In this document: one piece after another, positions 5,212 through 43,409 of the stretch | How positions within the stretch are numbered: position 1 is the first letter of the stretch | Layout of the letters: every line of letters starts with the position of its first letter | Assembly: GCA_031271755.1 (NCBI GenBank) | Contig: JAISVB010000034.1 | Location: forward strand, 1-64,000 | Source: Culturomica sp. | GTDB lineage: Bacteria; Bacteroidota; Bacteroidia; Bacteroidales; Marinifilaceae | Length of the DNA: 64,000 nucleotides | Direction: 5' to 3' | The notes under the pieces: model-generated | Told to the model about the DNA's origin: nothing | Databases searched by the model: none | Seen by the model: the letters and a program-made list of their open reading frames with translations, nothing else | Position numbers and translations under genes: made by a program

Positions 5212-6357
5212 ATGGGTTTGACTGTATCTTTGGACATGGGATCCGAAAAAATGGTGATGGCTGTCGCTGGTGAAAGCGGCGGCGCACCCAAGCTGGCTGC
5301 GATCAAGATGATCGCTTCCGCAGGCATGGAGGAGGGGGTGGTGACGGACAAGGCCAAGGTACGCTCTTACCTGGATTTTTTACTGAAAGAGGGGGCGAAA
5401 GGAGAACCTGTGGAGGTGGCGCACGTTGCCCTGAGCGGAAAATCGCTGCGGGTAACGGAACGAAAAGTGACCGTTCCGGTACAGCGCAAAATAGTGAAAG
5501 AGAGCGATTTGGCCAGAGCGGACAAAAGATGCCGGGAAACGGCGGAAGCCGGGGAAAATCCGGTATTGGATTGCTTTCCGGCAGCCTATTCTTTGGATGG
5601 AGGGAGCCCGACCCGCCGTCCTTTGGATCGTTCAGCTAAGGAGTTGACGGTGACCTACCGGGTCTATACCGCTTCCGGGAACAGCCGGCAGGAATTGGAA
5701 AAGATGTTGCTGGATCTGGGGGTGGGGCAGGTTCGTTTTTTTCCGGCCGTCCGGGCTTTTATGGAGGGTGTGGGGGTGCGGAACCGGAAAGAACGTTTTG
5801 CCCTGGTGGATCTGGGTGCTTCTCATACGGGCGTGCTGCTGTTTGCAGACAGCCTGTTGGAAAAAGAGGCGATCTTGCCGTTGGGGACGGAAACGGTGGA
5901 TACCGATATCTGCGCCGCATTTAAAATAGAGGAGCTCCGGCAAGCCCGGAAGTTGAAACAGGACGAAGGGAGCGCGCTGCGTTCCGCCTGCCGGAACGAG
6001 AAAGTGGAGATCCCCGGTCTCCGGAAACAGATCGAAAAGCGGGATTTGGCCAAAGTGATCCAGTGCCGGATGGAGGAGTTGCTGGAAGGAGCGATCTTTC
6101 AGTTGCAGCAGGCCGGGTTTACGGATCCGGAAGCGGAGATCCTGTTGACGGGGGGCGGCAGCCGCCTGGCGGACACCTTGTTGCTGGCGGAAAAATTGTC
6201 CGGGCAGCGGTGCCGGTATGCCAAAGCCCGGGGGGTACAGGCGGCGGACGACGTGTTGTCGGCTCCCTCATGCCTGATCGCTCTCGGGCTGTTGTTGTGT
6301 AAACCGTACGAACCCTTTGAAGAGCAGACCGGTTGGTTCGGCCGGTTGTTCAGGTAG
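5212..6357 (+). CDS. ftsA: FtsA, actin-like membrane tether for FtsZ
   Basis: FtsA is an actin-fold ATPase that anchors FtsZ filaments to the membrane and recruits the divisome. The phosphate-1 motif is SLDMGSEKMVMAVAG at the N-terminus. The phosphate-2 region VDLGASHTGVLLF is near residue 204 and the adenosine motif LLTGGGSRLADT near residue 315. The protein ends in GWFGRLFR, a short amphipathic helix of the kind FtsA uses as its membrane-targeting sequence. At 381 residues it is shorter than many FtsA proteins. It has two FtsZ partners encoded directly downstream, which raises the question of which one it binds. Confidence 0.92.
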   Translation: MGLTVSLDMGSEKMVMAVAGESGGAPKLAAIKMIASAGMEEGVVTDKAKVRSYLDFLLKEGAKGEPVEVAHVALSGKSLRVTERKVTVPVQRKIVKESDLARADKRCRETAEAGENPVLDCFPAAYSLDGGSPTRRPLDRSAKELTVTYRVYTASGNSRQELEKMLLDLGVGQVRFFPAVRAFMEGVGVRNRKERFALVDLGASHTGVLLFADSLLEKEAILPLGTETVDTDICAAFKIEELRQARKLKQDEGSALRSACRNEKVEIPGLRKQIEKRDLAKVIQCRMEELLEGAIFQLQQAGFTDPEAEILLTGGGSRLADTLLLAEKLSGQRCRYAKARGVQAADDVLSAPSCLIALGLLLCKPYEPFEEQTGWFGRLFR

Positions 6358-6398: not shown

Positions 6399-7691
6399 AT
6401 GGAGAACGGCGAACTGATACCCTGGAAACTTCCCGTACAGCAGGAGTCCATCATCAAAGTGATCGGCGTGGGCGGCGGAGGCAGCAATGCCGTGAACCAC
6501 ATGTGCCGGCAGGGGATACACGGCGTGGAGTTTGTGGTGTGCAACACGGACATACAGGCGTTGCGCCAAAGTCCGGTGAAAAACCGGATCCAGTTGGGAA
6601 AAGTCCTGACGGAGGGGCGTGGGGCAGGTTGTGTGCCGGAACGCGGGCGGAAATCGGCCGTCGAGAGCATGGATTTTATCCGCAGCATGCTGGCCCACCA
6701 GACAAAGATGGTATTCATCACCGCCGGTATGGGGGGCGGAACCGGTACGGGAGCGGCTCCGGAGATCGCCCGGCAGGCGCGGGAACTGGGGATCCTTACG
6801 ATCGGCATCGTGACTCTTCCCTTTAGTTTTGAAGGGCGCCGGAAAATGGAACAGGCCATGCAGGGGATCGATGAATTGGAAGAGGTGGTGGACGCGCTGC
6901 TGATCGTGGAAAACGACCGGTTGCCGGAGATATACGGAGACCTCAGGCTCTCCGAGGCTTTCGCCAAGGCGGACGACATCCTGGCGATCGCTGCAAAAAG
7001 TATAGCGGAGATCATCACCATCAAGGGATACATCAACGTGGATTTCGCCGATGTGAACAGCGTGATGCGGGAGAGCGGCGTGGCCCTGATGGGAGCGGGT
7101 GAGGCGGAAGGAGAGGAGCGGGCGACGCAGGCGCTGGAAGATGCGTTGGTTTCGCCCCTGTTGAGCAGTTGCGACATCCGCGGGGCTTCGAAAATATTGC
7201 TGAACATGTTGTACGGTGAAGATGCATTGACAACCAAGGAGTTGAAGTTGATCAACGAGCGATTGAAAGAGCGGGTGGGAAAGGACGATGCGGACATTAT
7301 CTGGGGAACCGGGCAAGATCACTCTTTGGGGAAAAAATTGCGGGTGGCGGTGATCGCCGTGGGCTTTAACGGCAAAACGGAACCCCTTGCCGCGCCGGGA
7401 ACGGTGCGGAAGCACACGGTCGCCGGAACTGCCGGGCAGCCGGTGGAGTTTAAGGTGGAAGATCTGCCGGAAGAGTTGGAGATGATCACCCTTCGTTCGG
7501 CGGAATTGGAGGAGGAAGCCCGGGCAAGGCGCCAGAAACAACAGGAACAGAAAACCCGGCTGTATCCGGAGGAATCTCCCCGGAGAAGGCGAAACGGCGC
7601 GAACGATATGCCGGACTCTTCCGGCTGGTTGCGGCAAAAGCTGGGCGGCATGTTCTCCGACGATACGAACCGGGACGCGGAGATGAAATAA
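6399..7691 (+). CDS. ftsZ: FtsZ paralogue 1 (divergent tail)
   Basis: This is a tubulin-fold GTPase of the division ring. The G-box GGGTGTGAAP is intact and the T7 loop reads NVDFADV, which keeps the catalytic Asp, so GTP hydrolysis looks possible. By eye the core is only about half identical to the FtsZ encoded 22 nt downstream. Differences include GAGCVPERG where the neighbour has GAGNNPEVG, and a weaker match around LLNMLYGEDAL. The linker is charged and long. The end, with SSGWLRQKLGGMF, does not resemble the EPAYNRRR tail of paralogue 2 and could form an amphipathic helix. That specialisation is inference. Confidence 0.93.
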   Translation: MENGELIPWKLPVQQESIIKVIGVGGGGSNAVNHMCRQGIHGVEFVVCNTDIQALRQSPVKNRIQLGKVLTEGRGAGCVPERGRKSAVESMDFIRSMLAHQTKMVFITAGMGGGTGTGAAPEIARQARELGILTIGIVTLPFSFEGRRKMEQAMQGIDELEEVVDALLIVENDRLPEIYGDLRLSEAFAKADDILAIAAKSIAEIITIKGYINVDFADVNSVMRESGVALMGAGEAEGEERATQALEDALVSPLLSSCDIRGASKILLNMLYGEDALTTKELKLINERLKERVGKDDADIIWGTGQDHSLGKKLRVAVIAVGFNGKTEPLAAPGTVRKHTVAGTAGQPVEFKVEDLPEELEMITLRSAELEEEARARRQKQQEQKTRLYPEESPRRRRNGANDMPDSSGWLRQKLGGMFSDDTNRDAEMK

Positions 7692-37266: not shown

Positions 37267-37695
37267 TTATCCAAATCCTACCTTTTTTACAGCATCCTTT
37301 GCACCCTCCACAGCCCCTTTTTGATTCGTAGATTCCAACGCCCCGATGTATTTATTTAACCTTGCAATTTCTTCATCTTTCTCCTTCAATTCCGATTTAA
37401 GGAATGCCACTATTCCATCGTTTTCTGGCTGCCTATCTTTACAAACACTTTCCTGCACTATTAACCCATTATCATCACGAAGCATCTGGCCGTTACCGGT
37501 GAGTAGCCAGATCGGATTGATATCAGGAAATTTAACTATGATTTTAGCAATTACAACATCCGAAACCGTCGATTTTAGTTTGTCTGAATCCAATAACCCT
37601 CGTTTTATTCCTAAAATATCGTAAAATTTAGCAATCTTAATCTTTTTAAAATCAAGATATTGTAAAATCCTATTCTTTGTAGTATCTAAAATCAT
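37267..37695 (-). CDS. Prophage repressor-like HTH protein
   Basis: The 142-residue protein is divergent from the early phage genes, in the position of the Mu c repressor. The N-terminal half (residues about 3-65) is a lambda-type helix-turn-helix, with KIAKFYDILGIKRGLLDSDKLK and the motif INPIWLLTGNGQML that commonly ends such domains in Bacteroidota phage repressors. The C-terminal half is a charged coiled coil (KSELKEKDEEIARLNKYIGALE), probably for oligomerisation. There is no S24 autoprotease domain, so induction would not be by simple RecA-stimulated self-cleavage. Confidence 0.78.
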   Translation of the reverse strand: MILDTTKNRILQYLDFKKIKIAKFYDILGIKRGLLDSDKLKSTVSDVVIAKIIVKFPDINPIWLLTGNGQMLRDDNGLIVQESVCKDRQPENDGIVAFLKSELKEKDEEIARLNKYIGALESTNQKGAVEGAKDAVKKVGFG

Positions 37696-37798: not shown

Positions 37799-37969
37799 AT
37801 GAATGAGATCATGTTACCAACGCCCCAACGGAAGGAGCTGGAGAAGATTTTTAAGGTTTCCCGGATGACCATCTGGCAGGCACTAAAGGGAAGGAGCAAC
37901 AGTCCGATGGCGCAACGGATCCGGAAGGCAGCCCTTGAAAAGGGCGGGAAAGAGTTTATTAACGCTTAA
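37799..37969 (+). CDS. Small HTH protein, Ner-like early regulator
   Basis: A 56-residue protein starts MNEIMLPTPQRKELEKIFKVSR, and its second helix-turn-helix part reads SRMTIWQALKGRSNSPMAQRIR. The pattern 'v...tvwqaLkgrsnsp.a.rIR..Al..Gg' is a compact DNA-binding fold seen in small Bacteroidota phage regulators. As the first rightward early gene opposite the repressor it holds the place of Mu ner, which turns down early and repressor transcription. The role is inferred from position and fold. Confidence 0.65.
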   Translation: MNEIMLPTPQRKELEKIFKVSRMTIWQALKGRSNSPMAQRIRKAALEKGGKEFINA

Positions 37970-37980
37970 ATCACAATCCC

Positions 37981-38145
37981 ATGTATTGGTACAAAGACAA
38001 TTGGAACGGTGGCATTCATGAGTTTAAAACACTTTCCGCCGCCAAAAAAGCCGCGAAAGATGAGTGTGGATGTACGATTTACATCCACAAAAAAGGTTCC
38101 GGCATTATCCATACAGTTAAGGCATCCGGGTATTGTTACCCATGA
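37981..38145 (+). CDS. Small hypothetical phage protein (54 aa)
   Basis: An ATG at 37981 begins MYWYKDNWNGGIHEFKTLSA and the frame ends SGYCYP-stop at 38145. It contains CGCTIYIH and YCYP, so three or four Cys could bind a metal, but no known fold is recognised. It starts 11 nt after the Ner-like gene and ends just before a structured non-coding segment. It is judged real from its codon-like composition and tight spacing, with modest confidence. Confidence 0.5.
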   Translation: MYWYKDNWNGGIHEFKTLSAAKKAAKDECGCTIYIHKKGSGIIHTVKASGYCYP

Positions 38146-38162: not shown

Positions 38163-38208
38163 TTCCCGGATGGTCAGAGAGGTGGTTCGATTCCACCTCC
38201 GGGAACCA
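38163..38208 (+). other. tRNA-like minihelix (acceptor stem + T-arm + CCA, no anticodon arm)
   Basis: TTCCCGGA (38163-38170) pairs perfectly with TCCGGGAA (38198-38205), which is followed by CCA (206-208). Inside lies a canonical T-arm, GGTGG-TTCGATT-CCACC (38181-38197), with the invariant G53-C61-type closing pair and TTCGA loop. Only ten bases (TGGTCAGAGA, D-loop-like) link the acceptor to the T-arm. The D stem, anticodon arm and variable loop are therefore missing; the element is 46 nt against about 75 nt for a tRNA. It lies 16 nt before the transposase start codon. Confidence 0.7.
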
Positions 38209-38224
38209 AAAACACAAAAAACAC

Positions 38225-40216
38225 ATGCGTGTAGACGAATACAACAGGATTTTGATAGGTTACGAGGAGGTGGTGCCGGTAGTTTTCAAAAAAGGTACCT
38301 ACGATATTGCACTGCATCGGCAAAGCATCATCACCACCTGTCGTGGTGGCTGTGGCCGGGAGGTGGAGATCATTTACGACGAATGCTCTCCTTCGTATCA
38401 GACCAAAATCCGCGCCGTGTTGGGTGATCCGCGTGAGATGTTGGGCCTTGTGAAAAAGGGCGAACCTGTTCTGCCGCTCTCGGAACTCTCCGACCGTGAA
38501 TTTTCCATCTGCCAGGCGCGTTATACGCTGGTAAACAGTTACCGGGATTATGCAGCAGAGCACAAGGCGCGGGCGAAGGGTACCGTGAATGCGAAGCAGG
38601 AGTTTGTCGACCTTGTGAACAGCGGACTGCTCTGTGATGCAGCTTATGCCGTTACCGGTGATGTGTCCTTTAAGACACTGGAGCGGTGGAGTAAGCGCCT
38701 GAGGGACTTCGGAGAAGAGATGAACGCTCTTGTTCCTGAGCGTAAGCGCAGTAATGCCACCTCGACCACCCTCTCTGCGGCGGAGCAGGAGCTTCTTATA
38801 AAGATCATCCGGAACCACTATTGCCAACCCGTACAGCCAACCCTTGCAGACTCTTTACGCATCGTGGAGGCTGTTTTCAAATCTTTCCATATGCCGGTAC
38901 CGGGTGAGGCAAAATGCCGCCGTTTTATGCGTCGGTGGATCGAGCAGAACGGCGCCCTTGTGGAAGCGGCCCGGCGCGGTGTAAAAGCAATGAAAGACAA
39001 ATTTATGCCTTATGTGGAGCGTGATCCGGAGAGCATCCGGTTCCTGGACGTATTGGTGGCGGACGGCCACGTGATGAATTTCCAGGTGGAATACACGGTA
39101 CCGGACAAATCGGGCCGCGAGGTTACGCGGACGGGCCGGCCGACAATGATCGCCTGGCAGGACATGCGCACGGGCGCGATCATGGGGTTTGAGTTGATGA
39201 TGACGGAGAACACCCTCTGCGTTGCGAGCTCCTTCCGCCTGGCGTGCATGCAGGCGGCGCGGATGTGCGGGAGCACGCAGTCGGCGGTGCTGCCGCGGAT
39301 GGTGTATTTGGACAACGGTAAAGCCTTTAAGAACAAGTTTTTCAATGAGACGGTGAACCTGAAGAACAGCGTCGGTGGCCTCTTTGAACAGTTGAAAGCA
39401 CACGGGTTCGAGGGTGTGCAGTACGCCCTTCCCTATAACGCCCAGACAAAGACCATAGAGCGCTCCTGGCGTAATTTCTTAGAGGTTGAAAAGCAGGCGG
39501 TGTATTACACCGGTAACTGCATAGACAATAAACCGGCGTACCTCCAGCGCAACGAAACGTGGCACCGGGAGGCGCTGCAAAATGAGATAAGCAAAAAGGG
39601 TATGCTCACCCTCCCGGGCGCCTACGCCATGATCGCCCGGTGGGTGGAGGAGTATAACGCCCGGGAGGGAAGCGGCAAATACCTTGCCGGCAGCAGCCCT
39701 GCGGGGTTGGCTGCACAGCAACTCCCGGATGTGGATCTGCGGGGCCGGATCCTGCCGGCGGATACACTCAACTACATGATCATGCAGCGGAGGACCTGCA
39801 CGATCAAAAGGAACGGCGTACAGGTGAACGGGGCGTGGTATTACAACGCGGCGGAGATGGCCTTACTCCCCAAAAACGAGATCGACGTGATCGTTAAATA
39901 CGACATGTTCAATCCTGATAAAGTGTACGTTTTCCGCACGGACGGCACCTATTGGTGTGAGGCGGGTTACTTTATCGGGCAGAAGGTGCATGCAATGTAT
40001 AAGCTGGGCTCCGAATCACAGCAGCGGGCAGCGAAGGCGGCCATCGGGACGGTGGAGCGGATTATTCACACGGCCTCCAACATGGCAAAGAACCTCAAGA
40101 ACGGAGGGCAGGTGCTTGATTACCGGATCGGGGAGTTGGATGTTGCACCGGCGGTTCGGCAGCTTGGGACCACTCCCCAGGTGGATGACGGCCTGGATGA
40201 CATCCGGATGTACTAA
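38225..40216 (+). CDS. Mu-like DDE transposase (MuA type)
   Basis: This protein catalyses strand transfer for replicative transposition of the prophage. The ATG at 38225 gives 663 residues. The frame is open upstream but that part covers the tRNA-like element and an earlier gene. The catalytic core has the DDE triad as D280 (LVADGHVMNF), D363 (VYLDNGKAFKN) and E412 (TKTIERSWRNF). The N-terminal third contains a Cys pair region (TTCRGGCGRE) and winged-helix DNA-binding segments. The C-terminal third would contact MuB. It is followed 43 nt later by the MuB-like gene. Confidence 0.93.
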   Translation: MRVDEYNRILIGYEEVVPVVFKKGTYDIALHRQSIITTCRGGCGREVEIIYDECSPSYQTKIRAVLGDPREMLGLVKKGEPVLPLSELSDREFSICQARYTLVNSYRDYAAEHKARAKGTVNAKQEFVDLVNSGLLCDAAYAVTGDVSFKTLERWSKRLRDFGEEMNALVPERKRSNATSTTLSAAEQELLIKIIRNHYCQPVQPTLADSLRIVEAVFKSFHMPVPGEAKCRRFMRRWIEQNGALVEAARRGVKAMKDKFMPYVERDPESIRFLDVLVADGHVMNFQVEYTVPDKSGREVTRTGRPTMIAWQDMRTGAIMGFELMMTENTLCVASSFRLACMQAARMCGSTQSAVLPRMVYLDNGKAFKNKFFNETVNLKNSVGGLFEQLKAHGFEGVQYALPYNAQTKTIERSWRNFLEVEKQAVYYTGNCIDNKPAYLQRNETWHREALQNEISKKGMLTLPGAYAMIARWVEEYNAREGSGKYLAGSSPAGLAAQQLPDVDLRGRILPADTLNYMIMQRRTCTIKRNGVQVNGAWYYNAAEMALLPKNEIDVIVKYDMFNPDKVYVFRTDGTYWCEAGYFIGQKVHAMYKLGSESQQRAAKAAIGTVERIIHTASNMAKNLKNGGQVLDYRIGELDVAPAVRQLGTTPQVDDGLDDIRMY

Positions 40217-40259: not shown

Positions 40260-41183
40260 ATGGCAAATTTACGGAAACAATTAGAGGCGCACCTTTCGGA
40301 CCACGGCTTTAGCCAGGAGGGTGTGGCAAAGGCGCTGGGTATCACGGGGGCTGTCCTTTCGGGCTGGCGCCGGGGCACGTACAAGGGTGATAACGGGCGT
40401 ATCGACGCGCTGGTGGAGGCATACCTTTCGCGTGCGGCGAGTATCGCCAAAAAATCGGAGGGCGTCTATAAGGACTTTGATTTCGTGGAAACGAGCGTGT
40501 ACGACAAGATCGTTAAAGGCATCGAACTGGCGGAAATCCGCGGCAGCATCCGCGTTGTGACGGGTGATTCGGGTGTGGGCAAGACAACGGCTTTAAAGCG
40601 GCTCAAGGAGCAAAACGAGAGCATGATTCTGCTCCAGGCCTATCCGGGTATCCGGAAAAACCGGGTGCTGGCAAAATTGGCCAAAGAGGCCGGTTTTTCG
40701 CTCCGCGGCTCCTTTGATGATCTTTTCGAGGAGTTGACGGAGCGCCTGGAGGGCAGCGGGCGGCTGATCGCTGTTGACGAAGCGGAACACCTTCCGATCG
40801 AGGCAGTGGACGCGATCCGGCGGCTGAATGACTTTACCGGGTGTCCGGTTGTTCTGGTGGGCCTTCCGGTGTTCTACGACATGCTGCGGGGGCACCAGCA
40901 CGATTATGCCTATGTGTATAACCGCATTTCGATCCCGATCCGTTCGGAGCGCCTTTTGAAGGAGGACGTAGCGCGGATGGTGGCAACGATCCTTCGTTCG
41001 GATGTGGATGCGGAGGTGTGGCTTTCGGCCTGCGGCGGCATCGGGCGGGATTTGAGGGAGGTGGTGCTGGAGAGCATCCGGGTGGCCGGTGTAAACGGGA
41101 TTACCCCGGACGATACGGAAAAATTCTTAAAGGTGATCCGGCGGGTGACCAAGGAGTTAAGCAGAACGGCTAATATGAGGTAA
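40260..41183 (+). CDS. MuB-like target-selection AAA+ ATPase
   Basis: MuB binds target DNA, activates the transposase and confers target immunity. The 307-residue protein has an N-terminal Xre-type helix-turn-helix (residues about 5-55, FSQEGVAKALGITGAVLSGW). An AAA+ domain follows, with Walker A GDSGVGKT at 102-109 and Walker B LIAVDEAEHL (Asp173-Glu174). The HTH plus ATPase architecture is that of MuB. It is 43 nt after the transposase gene and 2 nt before the next gene. Confidence 0.9.
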   Translation: MANLRKQLEAHLSDHGFSQEGVAKALGITGAVLSGWRRGTYKGDNGRIDALVEAYLSRAASIAKKSEGVYKDFDFVETSVYDKIVKGIELAEIRGSIRVVTGDSGVGKTTALKRLKEQNESMILLQAYPGIRKNRVLAKLAKEAGFSLRGSFDDLFEELTERLEGSGRLIAVDEAEHLPIEAVDAIRRLNDFTGCPVVLVGLPVFYDMLRGHQHDYAYVYNRISIPIRSERLLKEDVARMVATILRSDVDAEVWLSACGGIGRDLREVVLESIRVAGVNGITPDDTEKFLKVIRRVTKELSRTANMR

Positions 41184-41185
41184 TT

Positions 41186-41758
41186 ATGGACACGGCTTGC
41201 ACACAAAAACAAAACGGCCGGATTCACGCCCTGTTCAGCGATCTGGGGTGGAACGAGTTCGTGTATGGCAGCTGGCTCAAGGCTTACTATCATGTGGAAT
41301 GTCCGGGTGATCTGACCGGAGGGGAGGCTTCCCGGCTCATTCGGGAGCTCTCGGAGATCTTAAAGAACCAGCGGCGGAACCAGGAGGCCGGTGATGGCGA
41401 AAGGATGATCACATCGAAGCAGGAGACCTATTTAAAAACGCTCTGGCTTGGTGTTGACTATTCGAAGGGTGACAGCGGGGATAAACACCTGTCACAGTTC
41501 CTTTTGAAGCGGTTCCGGGTGAGGAAGGCGGGTGATTTGACGTGCCGGCAGGCGATCGCGTGCATTGCAATGATTAAATCCATGATCGCGCAGGCCGAGA
41601 AGCGTGCCGGTCGTACCACGGTACTGGATAAGAAGAGCCGTTGCCGGTATTGCGACGCCCTCATCATGTGGGTGCAGTTGCAGGACGGGCGGCGTATGGC
41701 GTTTGATTTTGATGATCAAAACCAGGCGACGAATTTCCATGAATGCGTAAAATCATGA
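41186..41758 (+). CDS. GemA-like (Mu gp16, DUF1018-like) protein
   Basis: The 190-residue protein has a central MITSKQETYLKTLWLGVDYSKG segment followed by a helical DLTCRQAIACIAMIKSMIAQ, similar in plan to the GemA/gp16 family that modulates host gene expression in Mu. The C-terminus carries CRYCDALIMWVQLQDGRRMAFD, a small CxxC knuckle of the type found in phage single-strand or RNA-binding proteins. The family match is moderate. The TGA stop overlaps the ATG of the Mor-like gene (ATGA), implying coupled translation. Confidence 0.6.
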   Translation: MDTACTQKQNGRIHALFSDLGWNEFVYGSWLKAYYHVECPGDLTGGEASRLIRELSEILKNQRRNQEAGDGERMITSKQETYLKTLWLGVDYSKGDSGDKHLSQFLLKRFRVRKAGDLTCRQAIACIAMIKSMIAQAEKRAGRTTVLDKKSRCRYCDALIMWVQLQDGRRMAFDFDDQNQATNFHECVKS

Positions 41759-43325: not shown

Positions 43326-43409
43326 AAATAGGTGATAGAGGGCTACATTCCTACCAAAAATCAGGCAAGAATCAGCTTTGAAGAAAACCAATAGACTAAA
43401 AATGAGACC

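Follow-up and report, generated by a model that had tools for sequence, protein, structure and literature searches.

What is a structure resembling a miniature tRNA doing immediately upstream of a Mu-type transposase gene? The question is raised by positions 38163-38208 of the window, the whole 64,000-nucleotide stretch of a Culturomica sp. contig (JAISVB010000034.1) that was analysed. The element lies in the early region of a Mu-like prophage, between the third and the fourth of the following features:

37267..37695, minus strand: divergent repressor-like ORF, named from its position only, with no Pfam match
37799..37969, plus strand: 56-aa HTH-like (Ner-like) ORF at the start of the early operon, named from position and the look of its sequence only
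37981..38145, plus strand: 54-aa ORF, the upstream cistron of the early operon, ending 18 nt before the minihelix; an ORF only, with no family
38225..40216, plus strand: MuA-type transposase, 663 aa (PF09299, Mu-transpos_C; phrog_310, E 3e-77)
40260..41183, plus strand: MuB-type AAA transposition protein (AAA_22; phrog_296, E 2e-56)
41186..41758, plus strand: GemA (PF06252)

The bases at 38163-38208 matched the earlier description, and the fold was as described. The element is 43 bases long, other members of its family being about 43 nt, and was parsed as follows, all on the plus strand:

38164..38168: 5' acceptor strand UCCCG, N+1 to N+5 (N+1 = T38164, then CCCG at 38165-38168); its pairs covary family-wide
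38169..38175: mini D-arm, a single pair G38169-C38175 closing AUGGU (38170-38174); the closing pair is kept across the family
38176-38178: linker AGA
38179..38199: T-arm, a 7-bp stem GAGGTGG (38179-38185)/CCACCTC (38193-38199) with the loop TTCGATT (38186-38192), seen in sequence, folding and family pairing
38200..38204: 3' acceptor strand CGGGA (CGGG at 38200-38203, N72 = A38204), ending at stacked position 12, to which pairing is selected
38205..38208: discriminator A73 (A38205) and C74 C75 A76 (38206-38208), of which C74 alone is conserved family-wide

The MuA start codon, an ATG at 38225, stands 18 nt after C74. The window element has 12 stacked base pairs (5+7). The 7+5 reading of the earlier note draws on the same bases; the eighth pair of what it called an 8-bp acceptor stem, T38163-A38205, joins N-1 to N73 and is not conserved in the family. 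The 10 nt joining the acceptor and T-arm strands, with no anticodon arm, were confirmed. The encoded CCA noted earlier is present in the window and also in L060; it is not a family feature, since positions 75-76 vary. By analogy with G18/G19, we propose that the GG of the mini D-loop docks on the T-loop. An ORF antisense to the element (38174-38827, minus strand) ends in VPGGGIEPPL, an artefact of the antisense T-arm that may be mistaken for a gene in automated annotation.

The element shares canonical features with tRNA, namely a UUCRANY T-loop, G53-C61, the 12-bp acceptor/T stack and N73. It does not form a cloverleaf with an anticodon arm: ARAGORN found no tRNA gene at the element, and RF00005 gave no match there, although the earlier note had expected a weak one from tRNA models. 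Among 4227 families of Rfam 15, none matched at the gathering score; the best sub-threshold match was Plastid-ycf2 on the minus strand (22.1 bits versus a gathering score of 65.7). ARAGORN likewise detected no tmRNA, with its tRNA-like domain and tag ORF, and the tmRNA model gave only a 17-nt sub-threshold match to the T-arm (12.7 bits, gathering score 84). The folding energy of the hairpin is unremarkable when taken alone (z about -1.8, weak and not decisive). The element is more than chance because of comparative evidence: a covariance model from whose training the window and its nearest look-alikes had been removed found it with 63.5 bits (E 8e-11).

Within its own genome, the window element is the sole full-scoring copy under the covariance model R1, and its exact 3' half is unique. 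The other R1 match in that genome is a 91-nt tRNA-Leu (28.8 bits). DNA searches of viral contigs, phages, and plasmids for the exact element gave no copy; the plasmid matches that were checked turned out to be 3' halves of true tRNAs and were rejected.

Comparison of sequences indicates that the window element is a member of a widespread family of predicted phage RNAs. The consensus comprises a 4-6-bp acceptor stem, a mini D-arm with a single pair (N-AYGGU-N'), a T-arm with a UUCRANU loop, a discriminator, and C74; loops and linkers vary among members. When the element was compared with phages by blastn, matches with the same layout and different stems were obtained in unrelated phages, including Mycobacterium phage Conspiracy and a saliva caudovirus. 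The pattern CCCGNATGGTN{7,11}GTTCGANTC matched 68 IMG/VR stretches, as compared to 5 for a control with a reversed T-loop, and the complementary CGGG was located directly 3' of the T-stem in 52 of the 59 distinct viral sequences tallied. A prospective scan with the acceptor changed to CCTG matched 91 stretches, and CAGG was in the correct place in 53 of 77 distinct ones. At an E limit of 1, R1, which was built from 17 members, yielded 111 matches spread over 63 loci; among them were the unsought acceptors GCCTG/CAGGC, GCGCC/GGCGC, GCTCC/GGAGC, and CCCAT/ATGGG. Most of the weak genome matches of R1 were 90-nt class-II tRNAs, which were set aside.

In an alignment of 84 distinct members, fitted to the covariance model, 98.5% of cells were paired and all three helices covaried, with a score of 0.816 versus 0.157 for shuffled alignments and at most 0.123 for all slid controls. 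Double changes numbered 346 versus 93 in shuffles and were present in 12 of the 13 pairs. An ungapped alignment of 17 sequences, which is independent of the model and whose members were preselected for CGGG and a regular layout, gave 99.5% paired and a score of 0.658 versus 0.130. G53-C61 was found in 84/84 members, and the pair closing AUGGU was formed in 82 of 83 (A-U 34, G-C 27, U-A 15, C-G 3, U-G 2, G-U 1; one mismatch). The discovery patterns fixed part of the motif, and conservation of CCCG, ATGGT, and GTTCGA in the first set is thus by construction; the covariation outside the fixed letters and the model matches with other acceptors are not. By eye, loop position 59 possibly correlates with N9. 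We also observed larger variants with longer D-arms (L017:6800-6900, L121:253-315, and L019:6215-6268), which are possible intermediates between tRNA and minihelix.

These data bear on whether the element is a relic of a tRNA gene, as the earlier note had suggested, or of an attachment site. The host tRNA-Leu, the only other R1 match in the genome, begins with GCCCGAATGGTG and ends with TTTCGGGCAC, and the ends of such a gene are similar to those of the element (GCCCGAATGGTG...CGGGCAC). However, compensatory changes, multicopy arrays, and a D-loop motif and lengths conserved across unrelated phages exclude decay: copies that covary, form arrays, and occur phage-wide are not decay products. Covariation rules the relic out in our judgment, leaving it a very slim chance at most, while ultimate descent from tRNA-Leu is possible. 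It is just as improbable that the element acts as DNA, for example as an operator, inverted repeats bound by MuA or Ner, or a recombination site, with an accidental RNA structure. An inverted repeat near MuA would suit such a site, as would the copies flanking an inserted module in LittleE (described below); yet the stem sequence is free, whereas its pairing, the asymmetric loops (UUCRA, AYGGU), and the orientation of the element with respect to the genes are kept constant, and the strand-specific loops together with the covariation contradict a DNA site.

The ends of the element were defined by the extent of pairing. Stacked position 12 was paired in a fraction of 0.83 versus 0.40 in shuffles, while position 13 was at chance (0.23 versus 0.27), and the limit fell at position 12 whether the 5' strand breaks as 5+7 or 6+6. 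These 12 stacked base pairs are the tRNA ruler. Position 13 (N73) is mostly A, position 14 (C74) is C in 81 of 111 copies and in 71 of the 84 distinct aligned members, and positions 75-76 are unconserved. On the 5' side, N+1 is G in 48/84; A-1 is the commonest preceding base and there is no preference for U-1, owing to stop codons, often TAG, that adjoin the element. Bacterial RNase P has been described to read the 12-bp stack, the contact region of the D- and T-loops, and RCC(A) (PMC11143913, PMC4919922).

The same ends might instead point to processing mainly on the 3' side, by RNase Z or by RNase P and RNase Z, which would free the minihelix or leave a tRNA-like 3' end on the upstream RNA. 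In the manner of a plant-virus TLS, such an end may receive a CCA extension and shield the RNA from 3' exonucleases, and the downstream mRNA would start right after the minihelix. The ruler indeed ends at N72 with a discriminator-like A next, and a second small hairpin lies 0-4 nt after C74 in 24 of 111 copies versus 3.4 in shuffles, as if it capped a new 5' end. However, C74 is conserved, and C74 and C75 are unfavorable to bacterial RNase Z; the window has an A-rich spacer in place of such a hairpin. We regard processing chiefly on the 3' side as unlikely. The second hairpin hints that a 3' cut matters too in some phages.

An HMM search placed a phrog_310 transposase directly downstream of the element in 10 divergent Mu-like phages (the window, L053, L060, L066, L075, L077, L082, L088, L089, and L190), whose transposases share ~20-40% pairwise identity where detectable. 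The distance from the element to the MuA start is 5-25 nt, except for 73 nt in L053. Four further Bacteroidales chromosome matches that we checked, all in Mu-like early regions, were located upstream of a phrog_310 transposase frame (L095), between MuB and phrog_846 (L096), and after phrog_846 genes (L100 and L103); in the window gap 43326-43409, which follows the homologue of the gene preceding the L100 and L103 copies, no degenerate copy was seen. Beyond the element's own genome, a scan of 395 Bacteroidota genomes detected no other copy at E below 1e-7, under strict filters and with only 15 candidates scored per genome, so that weak copies are lost. The element is rare in chromosomes and behaves as an accessory phage element.

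Searches with exact peptide patterns returned no close MuA relatives initially and few later. The closest ones (40-44% identity) had no clear copy in the MuA leader: none was recognised in L011, L012, L018, or L017, the first three having only a weak look-alike and L017 having no room before MuA. Thus, the conservation in related prophages that the earlier note had called for was found at this position in nine other Mu-like phages but not in the closest MuA relatives. Before MuA in L019 (1994-2037), TTCCAG-13 nt-CCGGGG(ATTGCGC)CCCCGG-CTGGAA-CCA forms 12 bp without a canonical T-loop, and a genuine copy is located at 6215, 4 kb beyond this look-alike.

In a crude ORF survey, copies occupied the spaces separating co-directional genes; the preceding stop codon was often 0-20 nt away and the next start 0-70 nt away. 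Mycobacterium phage Cuke carries 12 copies (10 strong, 2 weak), each of them on the coding strand. Gaps hold 8 of the 10 strong ones, as compared to a random mean of 1.4, and 10 of the 15 gaps longer than 60 nt hold a copy. Most acceptors in Cuke lie 8-10 nt past a stop codon; the two strong copies outside gaps likewise start 8-10 nt beyond a stop and are overlapped by annotated gene starts. The annotated starts of Cuke genes 43 and 44 (NC_048696.1 32429 and 32661) overlap minihelices, and the true starts are probably downstream. Arrays of 9, 9, 7, and 7 copies were found in four other contigs. This intergenic, co-directional, and arrayed placement is consistent with a tRNA-like fold at the gene borders of a predicted longer transcript.

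Placement 0-70 nt before start codons and near upstream stops would also suit an elbow mimic whose ligand is a regulator or part of the translation machinery (an RNA-modifying enzyme, EF-Tu, the ribosome, or a phage protein) and which controls or insulates translation of the next gene without cleavage. Proteins that bind the elbow recognise the T-loop and GG, and the variable loops and linkers leave room for a protein or ribosomal ligand. However, elbow binding alone needs neither the exact 12-bp ruler nor N73-C74, and in Cuke the copies are positioned no less closely with respect to the upstream stop than to the downstream start. We consider such a role without cleavage quite improbable.

Several copies have conspicuous surroundings. 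At LittleE (L125) genes 33-35, a module of two minus-strand genes is flanked by four minihelices on the same strand; the module is inserted between the tape measure and minor tail genes and is absent in KashFlow. The annotated gene 35 overlaps two of the minihelices in antisense and is probably spurious. Pentanucleotide (GGCNN)n-like repeats surround minihelices in L125 (LittleE 24.3-26.3 kb) and L078:1700-2250, and L073 is similar near 7000. In Conspiracy (L016; 49984-50025, minus strand), a minihelix is separated by 3 nt from the preceding stop of gene 87 and is followed immediately by the promoter-like sequence TTGACA-N17-TTTGAT.

The reading we favor is that the minihelix mimics tRNA and probably serves as processing punctuation, cut by host RNase P, that separates phage mRNAs. 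A polycistronic phage RNA would run through the element and fold into the 12-bp acceptor/T-arm stack, with the T-loop capped by the GG-bearing mini D-loop, presenting the tRNA elbow and ruler without an anticodon arm. Host RNase P would cut between N-1 and N+1, that is, between 38163 and 38164, which would free the upstream early mRNA and leave the transposase mRNA with a structured 5' end, 18 nt before the MuA start. In some phages, there may also be cleavage or trimming 3' of N73, by RNase Z or exonucleases, the involvement of RNase Z being less sure than that of RNase P. The purpose might be independent stability and translation of each cistron. Separation of the early transcript from the transposase mRNA would fit the 12-bp stack, the T-loop, the GG of the mini D-loop, N73-C74, and the pre-MuA and intergenic positions. 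The earlier idea that tRNA enzymes separate these two RNAs is thus supported by the comparison, from which we infer the cleavage. Against punctuation stand the 3' motif, only NC and not RCCA in most members, the lack of preference for U-1, and the closest MuA relatives without a clear leader copy. More broadly, arrays of anticodon-less mini-tRNAs may well be the means by which many unrelated phages punctuate their polycistronic mRNAs, using RNase P/Z of the host, the transposase mRNA being split from the early regulator in Mu-like ones.

We found no description of such a phage minihelix family in the open-access literature, subscription papers and bioRxiv being outside the search, and the family is apparently undescribed. 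It would represent a new structured phage RNA family with strong covariation and clear gene-border placement, a testable general mechanism by which phages cut one transcript into separate mRNAs, and a natural source of minimal substrates for enzymes that read the elbow, RNase P and RNase Z among them. A search model could improve phage annotation, in which these elements are overlain by misplaced start codons and by antisense ORFs that are spurious.

Several known systems resemble this family in part. In mitochondrial tRNA punctuation and plant mitochondrial t-elements, tRNAs or tRNA-like folds also lie between genes of a polycistronic RNA and are cut by tRNA-processing enzymes, as we infer for the phage elements; the latter are, in contrast, phage-borne, ~43 nt long, and have no anticodon arm and a one-pair D-arm. 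MALAT1 mascRNA and MEN-beta menRNA are likewise small tRNA-like folds inside longer transcripts. These are elements of eukaryotic lncRNAs for which cleavage by RNase P and RNase Z has been demonstrated, whereas the phage ones are smaller, intergenic, arrayed, and found in bacterial viruses. Artificial minihelix substrates of RNase P share the acceptor and T-arm on a 12-bp stack as a minimal model substrate but are man-made, while the phage family is natural and covarying and has an added mini D-loop. Phage C4 antisense RNA and phi80 M3 RNA are phage RNAs processed by RNase P; their structure differs from the minihelix, and they are not repeated intergenic minihelices. The tRNA-like domain of tmRNA and plant-virus TLSs also mimic the T-arm and acceptor without a normal anticodon arm, but the phage element has another architecture, with no resume ORF, no pseudoknotted acceptor, and no Rfam match. 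If the proposed reading is true, the family would be to viruses what tRNA punctuation is to mitochondria, and its members would be the smallest tRNA mimics in nature that keep the elbow intact.
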